64,000 nt of DNA from Eubacteriales bacterium (lineage in GTDB: Bacteria > Bacillota > Clostridia > Acetivibrionales > JANLFN01). Both the position numbers and the translations under genes were made by a program. Shown here in pieces: positions 58,364-62,221 of this stretch. The stretch's first letter is position 1. Every line of letters begins with the position of its first letter. Below the pieces are notes generated by a model, which made no database searches, was not told the DNA's origin, and saw only the letters and a list, made by a program, of their open reading frames with translations. Location of the stretch: contig JANLFN010000004.1 of assembly GCA_024655885.1 (NCBI GenBank), forward strand, positions 124,001 to 188,000, written 5' to 3'.

Positions 58364-58738
58364 TCAGCCCAGGGCCGTAAGCACACAAGCCTGCACCGCA
58401 TTCAGGCCCTTTTCGCGGATCAGGTCCAGGAGCTCCCTGTCGTAAGTGCCGGGCTGCAGCCATATATTTCCGATGCCCAGCCGCGCCGCTTCCTCAATGA
58501 CAGGCCTGCCGTTTTCAGGTGAAACCACCATGCCCACCACCTCCGGCTTTTCAGGAAGGGAGGCCAGGTTCCTGTAGCACCTGTCCCCCTCCACCGTCTC
58601 ATGGTTCGGATTTACGGCATAAACCCTGAAGCCCTCGGATTTCAGCCTTCTATAAATTTTGTTCCCGTACTTTTCCGGGTTGTTGCTTGCTCCCACCACG
58701 GCCCAAACCCTTTTCTCCAGCATCACTTCCTGCTGCAT
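58364..58738 (-). CDS. CoA-binding domain protein (YccU-like)
   Basis: 124 residues, a single Rossmann-type CoA-binding domain: 'VWAVVGASNNPEKYGNKIYRRLKSEGFRVYAVNPNHETVEG', then 'PEVVGMVVSPENGRPVIEEAARLGIGNIWLQPGTYD'. This is the stand-alone form similar to the N-terminal part of ADP-forming acyl-CoA synthetases. No catalytic His-containing domain is present, so enzyme activity is not expected from this chain alone. The biological role is unknown. No operon partners are obvious. Confidence 0.9.
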   Translation of the reverse strand: MQQEVMLEKRVWAVVGASNNPEKYGNKIYRRLKSEGFRVYAVNPNHETVEGDRCYRNLASLPEKPEVVGMVVSPENGRPVIEEAARLGIGNIWLQPGTYDRELLDLIREKGLNAVQACVLTALG

Positions 58739-58924
58739 CCATCCTCCCTCCTCTTTGCTGTTTAGTACTACTTTGTCTGATTTAGAAAAAACATGGTTTA
58801 ACGCAGAAAGCCATATCTTTCAGAAGGATTTTCAATAGCATCGAAAAGTCCATTCCAAGGTAATGGGGCATACTTTTCTGAATCACGGGGATTCCTTTTA
58901 CGATGAGGAATGTCCCGTTTTCCC

Positions 58925-58975
58925 CCGTCTTCACCCTCAGCTTCTCAGCCTGCGCGGAGCGTCTCAGCCCCTCAT
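58925..58975 (-). repeat. GCTGAG-rich dispersed repeat, copy 3
   Basis: Minus strand GGGCTGAGACGCTCCGCGCA then GGCTGAGAAGCTGAGGGTG, overlapping the stop of the YigZ-like gene. Matches the core of the copies at 36785-36955 and 38148-38189. Confidence 0.6.
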
Positions 58976-59643
58976 CTGTTTCTATCCGGCTTCACCGGTT
59001 TTCCTTCACCGTCCAGCGCTACATAAGTCTTTTCGCCCATTTCCACGATGGCTTTCCCATTGGAAGCCTCATTGATTAAAAGGGTAAATTTCAAAACGTC
59101 CTCCACCGGTACAAACACTATTATCTCCACATCCTGTCCGTATATTACGTTTTTTATGGCATAGCCCTTTCCCGCAATCACGCTCTGCAGTTTCCCCAGC
59201 ATCCCGTATTCCATCACCACGCTCGCTTCCATGCAGAGTTTTTTACAGACCACCGCCGCCGCTTCAATCCCTAAAGCTGCGCTTTTGCCGTACGCCCTGA
59301 TGAGGCCTGCCGCTCCCAGCAGGGTGCCTCCGAAATACCTGGTCACCACAACAACCAGGTCCTGTACCTCCATACGCTTTATCACCTCCAGTACAGGCAT
59401 TCCCGCCGTACCTGAAGGTTCGCCGTCGTCGCTGAACCGCTGGACGGTGTTTTCTCCTCCGATAAAATAGGCGTACACATTGTGGGTTGCATCCCGGTAC
59501 CTTGACTTCAGCGAATGAATGAAATCCAGCGCCTCCTCCTCGCTGGATGCGGGTTTAACCGAAGAAATAAACCTTGACTTCTTCTCCTCCATTTCAACAC
59601 TGGCGCAGTTGAATACCGTTTTATATTCCTTCCGCAATTCCAT
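58972..59643 (-). CDS. YigZ/IMPACT family protein
   Basis: 223 residues from the ATG at 59643; the frame continues to 59724, but family members start near 'MELRKEYKTVF'. Neither start has an ideal binding site. The N-terminal UPF0029 domain has 'EEKKSRFISSVKPASSEEEALDFI', 'RDATHNVYAYFIGG', 'RFSDDGEPSGTAGMPVLEVI' and 'VVVTRYFGGTLLGAAGLIRAYGKSA'. A DUF1949 domain follows (~140-210). Eukaryotic IMPACT regulates Gcn2; the bacterial role is unclear. A GCTGAG repeat overlaps the stop codon. Confidence 0.9.
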   Translation of the reverse strand: MELRKEYKTVFNCASVEMEEKKSRFISSVKPASSEEEALDFIHSLKSRYRDATHNVYAYFIGGENTVQRFSDDGEPSGTAGMPVLEVIKRMEVQDLVVVVTRYFGGTLLGAAGLIRAYGKSAALGIEAAAVVCKKLCMEASVVMEYGMLGKLQSVIAGKGYAIKNVIYGQDVEIIVFVPVEDVLKFTLLINEASNGKAIVEMGEKTYVALDGEGKPVKPDRNR

Positions 59644-59831
59644 CACCTCAGAAAAGTTCGTTAAGCCCTCAGTTATCCGCTGCCGGTAAAAAGCAAAATA
59701 AAAGACAGCTTCCCTTTCAGCCATCTTTTATTTTAGCATGAATCTTACTCTTTATTATAAAATAATTATCCAACTTTCCGTCGGCAGTTCTTACATGCTG
59801 CTTCAAACTCAGTCCCCGATTCCCCTATTCT

Positions 59832-60245
59832 TTACGCAAGTTCCTTCAATTTTTTATACGTCAGGTTCAGCAAGGATTTATCCTGGCTGTATGTGACAAG
59901 GTTCATCGCATCTTCAATGCTGAAAAAACCTCCTTCTAAAAACTTGTCTTGCTCATTAATATTAAATTCCTCATTGTGGGTTTTCATTATATACCATGTG
60001 ATTTTATTGCAGATTGGTTTTTGTCGTGTTACAGAAAAGAACTCATAACTTGTTTGACCGGCTGGAGAAATGATGTCCGCAGAAATACCCGCTTCTTCCT
60101 TTACTCTTCTTAAAGCAACTTCATTGGCTAAATCCCCGTTGCGGACCACGCCTTTGGGAAATATCCACTCACCCTTTTCGTTCTTCAGGAGGAATACCTT
60201 TTCACCCGAAAAAACCAGTCCTCCAGCACACTTTCTTACAATCAT
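59832..60245 (-). CDS. Nudix hydrolase-like protein with altered Nudix box
   Basis: 137 residues with a Nudix fold: 'CAGGLVFSGEKVFLLKNEKGEWIFPKGVV' leading into the box 'GDLANEVALRRVKEEAGI'. The canonical box GX5EX7REUXEEXGU is altered: the first Glu is Asp and the Arg-Glu pair is Arg-Arg, while the metal-binding EExG is kept. It may still bind nucleotide or have shifted activity. It is located between YigZ and hflX without clear operon partners. Substrate unknown. Confidence 0.82.
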   Translation of the reverse strand: MIVRKCAGGLVFSGEKVFLLKNEKGEWIFPKGVVRNGDLANEVALRRVKEEAGISADIISPAGQTSYEFFSVTRQKPICNKITWYIMKTHNEEFNINEQDKFLEGGFFSIEDAMNLVTYSQDKSLLNLTYKKLKELA

Positions 60246-60365: not shown

Positions 60366-62147
60366 TTATTCAATCATTTTATCCCTTACAAGAAATTCCT
60401 TAACCCTGCCTGTTTCCCTGCTCCTCATCCGGACCTTTACCCTTATCCCCTCTCCTGTAAACTCCCTGTCCAGGAGTTTTCCGTTTTCATAGATGTAGGA
60501 AAGCACCCGGCCTTCACTGTAAGGCACCAGCAGCTCCACCTCCTCTTCCTCTGCCGGCATCAATTCCGAAATGCCCTTTAAAAGTTCATCCAGCCCCTGG
60601 CCTGTCTTCGCAGAGATCTCAAATACCTTCTCGGCACGGCTTTCCACAGCAACCCTGAAGGCGTCCCGCCGCAGGTCCGTTTTGTTCAGCGCCAGAATGA
60701 CAGGCTTGCCGGAAGCTCCAAGGCTGTCCAGTATCTCATCCACCACAGCAATATGCTCGCCGAGCTCCTCACTTGTCACATCCGCCACATGGATTAAAAC
60801 ATCGGCGTATACGGCCTCCTCCAGAGTAGACTTGAAAGCCTCCACCAGGTCGTGGGGAAGCTTGCGGATGAACCCCACGGTATCGGTCAGGAGGGCTTCC
60901 CTCCCATCCGGCAGGTGAAACTTTCTGGTGGCAGGGTCAAGGGTGGCAAAAAGCCTGTCTTCCGCAAGTACGTCGCACTTGCACAGCGCATTCATCAACG
61001 AGGATTTTCCCGCATTGGTGTATCCCACCACCGCCACCGTGGGAATTGCGTCTTTGGACCTGCCCTCACGCAGGATTCCCCTTCTCCTGCCCACCTTTTC
61101 CAATTCCCTTTGAAGGAAATCGATTCTCCTGCGGATGTGCCTCCGGTCCACCTCCAGCTTCTTTTCACCGGGGCCCCGGGTGCCTATTCCTCCCCCAAGC
61201 CTTGACAGCTGTCCACCCAATCCCGTCAGGCGGGGAAGCCTGTATTTAAGCTGTGCCAGTTCCACCTGCAGCTTTCCTTCCATGGAGCGGGCCCTCTGGG
61301 CGAAAATATCCAGTATTAACGCCGTCCTGTCAATGACTTTTACGCCCACAGCCTTTTCCAGGTTTCTTATCTGGGCGCCGGACAGTTCATCGTCAAAAAT
61401 GATCACGTTTGCATCCAGGGCCTGCCTTAAAAGATTCAGCTCATCCACCTTTCCCTTCCCGATATAATAGGCGGAATTCCTGCCCTCTTTTCTTTGAAGC
61501 ACCTTATGCAGGACAGTGACCCCCGCGGTGACGGCAAGCTCCTGAAGCTCCTCCAGTGACCTTTCCCCTTCGGTCCTCTGACCGGCCACCTTTCCCCCGG
61601 GGGCTTCCAGTCCCACAAGAACAGCCCGTTCTTCTTCTTCCCTGATTTCATGGGCCGTATTTCCCCGCGTCCTGTCCCTGTCCAGTATGAGCTCTAAAAG
61701 GAGGTTGATTTTTCCATCTCCCGGGGCAAAAGGTCCGAACAGGTCCATCCTGCTGAACTCGCCGTTTTCACCCCTTGCGGGCAGTGCCGCATAAATTTCA
61801 ACAGCCGTGCCGTCCTTCACTCCCACAGCCGCTATGGCATCCAGCTTTAGTTTCAAGGCCGCATTAAGGTCCACAGCCGAAAGCTGTCCTTCTCCGGTGG
61901 GATGGGTGTGGACGCACCGGATTCCGGAAAGCCTGGCCTCGTCCCTTTTTCCATGGACTTCATCCAGAGAGACCGTTGTGCTGTCGCCTACGCTCACGTC
62001 CACAACGCTGCCTTTCCTGTCCAAATACACCGCGATTTCCCGGTTGATCCTCCCGGTTAAGTCCGCAAGCCTCCTCGCCAGTTCTTCAGGCAAAAACTCC
62101 CCGCTGCCTGCCTGTATCCCGTACAGCTCCTCCATCTGTTTTAACAC
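60366..62147 (-). CDS. hflX: GTPase HflX with N-terminal JAMM-like domain
   Basis: 593 residues from a GTG at 62147. The C-terminal half is HflX: linker 'SGAQIRNLEKAVGVKVIDRTALILDIFAQRARS', then 'LGGQLSRLGGGIGTRGPGEKKLEVDRR', G1 'VGYTNAGKSSLMNAL', G3 'DTVGFI' and G4 'NKTD'. HflX splits stalled ribosomes. The first ~170 residues are extra and contain H80, H82, S90 and D93 in 'VHTHPTGEGQLSAVD', an exact H-x-H-x7-S-x2-D JAMM metal motif, plus E37. In-frame upstream codons (62148-62195) read FINGISGNTESLKES, family-like but with no usable start. Confidence 0.93.
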   Translation of the reverse strand: MLKQMEELYGIQAGSGEFLPEELARRLADLTGRINREIAVYLDRKGSVVDVSVGDSTTVSLDEVHGKRDEARLSGIRCVHTHPTGEGQLSAVDLNAALKLKLDAIAAVGVKDGTAVEIYAALPARGENGEFSRMDLFGPFAPGDGKINLLLELILDRDRTRGNTAHEIREEEERAVLVGLEAPGGKVAGQRTEGERSLEELQELAVTAGVTVLHKVLQRKEGRNSAYYIGKGKVDELNLLRQALDANVIIFDDELSGAQIRNLEKAVGVKVIDRTALILDIFAQRARSMEGKLQVELAQLKYRLPRLTGLGGQLSRLGGGIGTRGPGEKKLEVDRRHIRRRIDFLQRELEKVGRRRGILREGRSKDAIPTVAVVGYTNAGKSSLMNALCKCDVLAEDRLFATLDPATRKFHLPDGREALLTDTVGFIRKLPHDLVEAFKSTLEEAVYADVLIHVADVTSEELGEHIAVVDEILDSLGASGKPVILALNKTDLRRDAFRVAVESRAEKVFEISAKTGQGLDELLKGISELMPAEEEEVELLVPYSEGRVLSYIYENGKLLDREFTGEGIRVKVRMRSRETGRVKEFLVRDKMIE

Positions 62148-62221
62148 CGACTCTTTGAGGGATTCGGTATTGCCGCTGATACCGTTGATAAATTTTCACC
62201 ATCCATTTTCATAAAAAATAG

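Follow-up and report, generated by a model that had tools for sequence, protein, structure and literature searches.

Under stress, HflX rescues stalled ribosomes, and in some bacteria it also contributes to resistance against macrolides and lincosamides. The hflX gene analyzed here belongs to a clostridium (Eubacteriales bacterium) and lies in a stretch of 64,000 nucleotides (contig JANLFN010000004.1, positions 124,001 to 188,000), hereafter the window. The initial annotation of this gene pointed to residues in the N-terminal region of the protein that are reminiscent of a JAMM metal-binding site. This raises the question of whether a metalloprotease-type domain precedes the ribosome-splitting GTPase and, if so, what role such a domain would play.

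Domain organization of the HflX protein

The hflX open reading frame (60366-62147) is located on the minus strand, which the initial annotation did not specify; a plus-strand reading of the same interval was ruled out by the presence of 10 stops. The product scored 464.7 bits against the equivalog model TIGR03156 (cut-off: 216.75), which identifies it as HflX. With the start codon re-assigned as described below, the gene extends over 60366..62189 on the minus strand and comprises 607 codons from the inferred ATC to the stop. Four Pfam domains were found in the order GTP-bdg_N, GTP-bdg_M, MMR_HSR1, and HflX_C, all encoded on the minus strand: the ribosome-binding N-terminal domain of HflX (PF13167; 61299..61565; E = 3.7e-33), the middle or helical region (PF16360; 61059..61295; E = 3.1e-31), the G domain (PF01926; 60681..61040; E = 5.7e-21), and the C-terminal domain (PF19275; 60411..60638; E = 3e-7). 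This set of N-domain, helical region, G domain, and C-terminal domain is as complete as in the TIGR03156 proteins of E. coli, Listeria, and mycobacteria, and the conservation of these domains suggests that the JAMM-bearing HflX would split ribosomes as well.

In contrast to HflX of the E. coli type, which lacks such a domain, a JAMM domain of ~170 amino acids is predicted in front of the GTPase here. This JAMM/MPN domain maps to 61671..62105 (minus strand), approximately residues 29-173 counted from the ATC. The N-terminal extensions of E. coli HflX (22 amino acids; PMC4770234) and of mycobacterial HflX (39-58 amino acids; PMC12493154) are too short to hold a JAMM domain. Taken as a whole, inferred steps included, our best explanation is that HflX of this clostridium is probably a two-part protein, with a JAMM metalloprotease-type domain ahead of a complete ribosome-splitting GTPase.

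The genes that come after hflX on the minus strand (58364-60245) encode a Nudix protein, a YigZ/UPF0029 protein, and a CoA-binding protein. The Nudix and YigZ neighbors both recur in six relatives (L021, L023-L026, and L028) and the CoA-binding gene in five of these. Only these three genes recur in the hflX neighborhood of close relatives, with no obvious substrate among them, and no substrate or ubiquitin-like partner was found for the JAMM domain.

Conservation of the JAMM motif

The residues singled out by the initial annotation (E37, H80, H82, S90, and D93 when numbering starts at GTG 62147) were all confirmed at these positions, together with T81. The protein appears to be 14 residues longer, so that these positions become E51, H94, H96, S104, and D107 in the full-length numbering. 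Glu51 (62037..62039, minus strand, as for the other residues) is the predicted acid-base catalyst, a role assigned by analogy to E22 of AfJAMM (PMC300881). His94-Thr95-His96 (61902..61910) and Asp107 (61869..61871) would provide the zinc ligands, the aspartate being the third, and Ser104 (61878..61880) is predicted to stabilize the tetrahedral intermediate. The domain thus reads E-Xn-H-T-H-X7-S-X2-D, in agreement with the JAMM/MPN+ motif E-Xn-H-S/T-H-X7-S-X2-D. The spacing of the His, Ser, and Asp residues (+2, +10, and +13) is identical to that of H67/H69/S77/D80 in AfJAMM (PMC300881), whereas the Glu is found 43 residues ahead of the first His, against 45 in AfJAMM (PMC300881). Taken alone, the bare pattern H-x-H-x7-S-x2-D constitutes weak evidence, because it occurs twice in the 58,925 residues of the six-frame open reading frames of the window (≥60 amino acids).

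We searched relatives and GTDB genomes for sequences homologous to the N-terminal region. E37, H80, T81, H82, S90, and D93 (numbered from the GTG) were invariant in 46/46 non-identical close homologues, which share 30-58% identity with the query. N35, R36, and R77 were likewise invariant across these 46 sequences, and many surrounding positions were variable. At the class level, all of the 108 rows presented E-H-H-S-D with the exception of two, one fragment and one sequence with EYYLT (L151). The addition of phylum-level rows brought the number of rows with an intact E-H-H-S-D to 138. Phylum-wide, the non-intact rows consisted of four EFRSD (three of them from genus g329), one EYYLT, one NYFS-, and one QVH--, plus fragments. 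The motif residues therefore do not vary freely among homologues. With 138 intact rows against few exceptions, the alignments indicate strong selection on the site across most lineages and its loss in a few of them. The sequences that have lost metal ligands (L219, L220, L221, L223; L151; L222; L227, presenting EFRSD, EYYLT, QVH--, and NYFS-) are candidate natural inactive versions of JAMM-HflX.

These patterns bear on whether the domain would be an enzyme. It might instead bind metal without catalysis, as a structural or zinc/redox-sensing module tuning the binding of HflX to the ribosome, on the model of the mycobacterial N-terminal extension, which promotes rRNA disordering. This extension aids splitting without enzymatic features (PMC12493154), and the persistence of degenerate JAMM versions devoid of ligands in some lineages (EFRSD and EYYLT) is consistent with such a role. 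However, the catalytic Glu and Ser show the same invariance as the ligands, although a zinc site with a purely structural role could dispense with both. We regard a non-enzymatic role as rather unlikely, though worth serious consideration. The initial annotation had also raised the possibility of a degenerate structural module, a description that fits the few lineages with EFRSD, EYYLT, NYFS-, or QVH-- but not the remaining ones, where the motif is intact.

Predicted fold of the N-terminal domain

The structure of the N-terminal domain was predicted by AlphaFold from a 45-row alignment with a mean pLDDT of 85 and a pTM of 0.79, and the part of the model that matches JAMM structures spans residues 29-166. 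When the model was compared to the PDB with Foldseek, the top five rows were all RadC (2qlc; E = 3e-3, a modest value), and the MPN domains of Csn5, Rpn11, and Mov34 were found further down among other rows. All of the best 50 rows of VIA-align were JAMM/MPN proteins: the top match was P. furiosus JAMM1 (112 residues; rmsd 3.8), with a Z of 7.7, and Z < 8 is the range where the tool advises caution. The other matches in these 50 rows included BRCC36, RadC, AfJAMM, Rpn11, AMSH, Sst2, Cap3, and BubCD. We consider this caution answered, since all 50 rows agree and independent evidence from the sequence points the same way. Structure prediction combined with structural comparison thus returns JAMM/MPN folds, and neither of the two outcomes that the initial annotation named as refuting its reading was observed. 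Together, the models and alignments assign the N-terminal ~170 residues to a JAMM/MPN domain and support the observation and interpretation of the initial annotation. The full-length AlphaFold model (pLDDT 79.9; pTM 0.63) does not fix the placement of this domain relative to the GTPase.

Profile searches led to the same protein families. Against PDB sequences, AMSH-LP and Sst2 were the leading matches, and the first 15 of 18 chains were AMSH-like proteases, STAMBP, or an MPN protein. With hhalign, the domain matched the order's own RadC with a probability of 88% and Prok-JAB with 85%, relative to 0.3% for the control frr (ribosome recycling factor). The Pfam cut-offs were not reached for RadC (PF04002; 13.1-15.4 bits vs 22.1) or for Prok-JAB (PF14464; 15.0-18.0 bits vs 25), and the search of the N-terminal domain with Pfam and NCBIfam yielded only sub-threshold JAB/RadC rows and unrelated weak rows. 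These low scores explain why the domain is left unannotated by Pfam and why, although related to RadC, it is not filed as RadC. Overall, the domain resembles the JAMM/MPN+ metallopeptidases (AfJAMM, PfJAMM1, AMSH, Rpn11, and Csn5) in its motif and predicted fold, but it differs from them by its fusion to a ribosomal GTPase and by a sequence too distant for Pfam cut-offs. It also shares its motif with the RadC-like JAB proteins, but it presents HTHP where RadC presents HNHPSG and has a different fusion partner.

The proximity to RadC in the Foldseek and hhalign results, as well as the contacts of HflX with rRNA, could mean that the domain, as a RadC-like module, acts on nucleic acid such as rRNA or tRNA, or in its vicinity, and not on protein. 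On the other hand, Prok-JAB scored nearly as high as RadC and the PDB profile matches were deubiquitinases of the AMSH type; moreover, the biochemical function of RadC is itself unsettled. Action on nucleic acid appears improbable. Finally, a coincidental motif on a domain unrelated to JAMM is hardly credible: the bare pattern recurs in the window and the individual scores are sub-threshold, but the five residues are invariant and the fold prediction, the PDB rows, and the profile-profile scores relative to the control all converge.

A predicted non-canonical start codon for hflX

The initial annotation took GTG 62147 as the start of hflX. This assignment was wrong: the conserved protein starts 14 codons upstream, at an ATC (62187..62189, minus strand), and a conserved AUU/AUA/AUC start had been missed. 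The ATC aligns with the ATG of homologues from other orders (MDISG, MEIGG, and MQVNG). It is preceded by the Shine-Dalgarno sequence GGATGGTGA (62196..62204, minus strand), whose duplex with the anti-Shine-Dalgarno was estimated at -11.4 kcal/mol for this start. An in-frame TGA inside the Shine-Dalgarno (62196-62198) closes the hflX frame just upstream and is followed by AAA TTT ATC.

The same arrangement was found across the order. In 17 of 36 order genomes (the window genome and 16 others), no in-frame ATG, GTG, or TTG is present in the 16 codons that precede the conserved Gly. The sole canonical codon is poorly placed in 15 further genomes, two are ambiguous (G003 and G026), and two present a canonical start (TTG in G016 and ATG in G034). 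Based on a case-by-case manual reading of the start-site table, 32/36 order genomes thus present a clear AUU/AUA/AUC hflX start behind a strong Shine-Dalgarno with no suitable canonical alternative (loci listed with such a start: L002-L020, L060, L075, L079-L084, and L155-L159). Most of these codons lie at -4 relative to the Gly, and their anti-Shine-Dalgarno pairing energies range from about -10 to -17 kcal/mol. One genus, represented by 11 species, has ATT or ATA at the start position; in codons 2-14 counted from it, 86, 62, and 330 differences were found at codon positions 1, 2, and 3, respectively. This concentration of differences at the third position indicates that these codons are translated.

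A conventional start of hflX, either at GTG 62147 or at a GTG inside the Shine-Dalgarno, would make the AUU-type start illusory. Indeed, about ten order genomes have an in-frame GTG within GAGGTGA, and the two genomes with TTG and ATG point in the same direction. Against this, no canonical codon is available in the 17 genomes described above, the residues upstream of GTG 62147 are conserved (G6 in 45/45), and the codon bias begins at the AUU-type codon. We consider a conventional start very improbable. Comparison across genomes thus supports a translation of hflX that begins at AUU/AUA/AUC, ATC in the window, behind a strong Shine-Dalgarno.

Three control genes were assessed by similar criteria: 30/30 era, 29/30 frr, and 0/28 infC genes had a canonical start preceded by a Shine-Dalgarno. 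The result for infC, which encodes IF3, matches expectation because its AUU-type start is already known. The hflX start resembles infC in placing an AUU-type codon behind a strong Shine-Dalgarno, and infC of the same order is arranged alike. Many order genomes hold two or three infC genes, and those examined start with AUU, AUC, or AUA behind GGAGGTG. The hflX start is also similar to the conserved AUA/AUU starts with an extended Shine-Dalgarno of ccpN and cvfC1 in Staphylococcus (PMC13009471), but the latter involve other genes and another order, and they were measured, whereas the start of hflX is predicted by comparison. One order member (G048; L206) encodes an HflX without JAMM domain that starts at ATT behind a Shine-Dalgarno (pairing of -13.0 kcal/mol) with no nearby canonical alternative; the type of start is therefore a trait separate from the presence of the JAMM domain. 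Outside the order, G423 (ATT), G458 (ATA), and G416 (ATC) also lack a canonical codon at the hflX start. The JAMM-HflX of G092 (L128) presents an apparent CTG start with no canonical alternative. Gene callers restricted to ATG, GTG, and TTG will mis-start hflX across the order.

Distribution and novelty of JAMM-bearing HflX

The JAMM domain was found on HflX in 37/58 genomes of the order, 90/291 genomes of the class, and 55/299 genomes of the phylum. To judge by these sequence matches, JAMM-bearing HflX is a widespread clostridial family. In many order members, HflX is devoid of the JAMM domain or no protein scores above the HflX cut-off. Some order members possess a second, short HflX without JAMM, with an ATG start after a Shine-Dalgarno (G049:C34, G051:C38, and G053:C102; L209-L211).

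Our literature search, which covered few subscription journals, returned no relevant paper on HflX with JAMM, JAB, or RadC and nothing relevant on HflX with an AUU or other non-AUG start. A 2025 review mentions only unexplained HflX extensions in Clostridium, and in 2025 reviewers counted the significance of N-terminal extensions among the unsolved questions. To our knowledge and in the literature searched, a ribosome-splitting GTPase that also carries an intact JAMM active site has apparently not been described. The AUU-type start of hflX adds another undescribed case to a phenomenon that is already known.

Possible activity and regulation

By homology to AfJAMM and Csn5, it is fairly likely that the JAMM domain of HflX binds zinc and hydrolyzes a peptide or isopeptide bond. 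In this reaction, H94, H96, and D107 would hold the metal, E51 would act as acid-base catalyst, and S104 would stabilize the intermediate. The target could be a protein located where the subunits meet, on a 50S particle that is stalled or has just been split: a ribosomal protein, the nascent chain, or a bound factor. Such an action on a ribosome-associated protein is conceivable but doubtful; it is suggested by the tethering of the JAMM domain to the N-terminal end of HflX, which enters the ribosome. At this same end, the mycobacterial extension touches uL16 and rRNA helix 38 (PMC12493154).

The start codon may also contribute to the regulation of HflX. Non-canonical starts in Staphylococcus reduce expression to ~10-30% of that obtained with AUG, with a medium-dependent effect for one gene (PMC13009471). 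In E. coli, the AUU of infC mediates the autocontrol of IF3 synthesis, according to work cited in PMC1780047, and IF3 is the anti-association factor, which prevents split subunits from rejoining (PMC9067457). By analogy to infC, the weak start codon would keep HflX scarce and make its synthesis sensitive to IF3 and to initiation stringency. The same type of start in hflX and infC suggests a shared control by initiation stringency, and we propose as a hypothesis that hflX looks to be under an infC-like weak-start control. At our most speculative, clostridial HflX could be a bifunctional GTPase/metalloprotease that cuts a ribosome-associated protein during the splitting of stalled ribosomes, with a level set by initiation fidelity through the conserved AUU-type start, linking splitting to IF3.

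If the protease site is real, ribosome rescue would gain a proteolytic step in about one-third of the sampled Clostridia genomes. The AUU-type start that hflX has in common with IF3 leads to the testable hypothesis that splitting and anti-association factors may be co-regulated by start-codon stringency.
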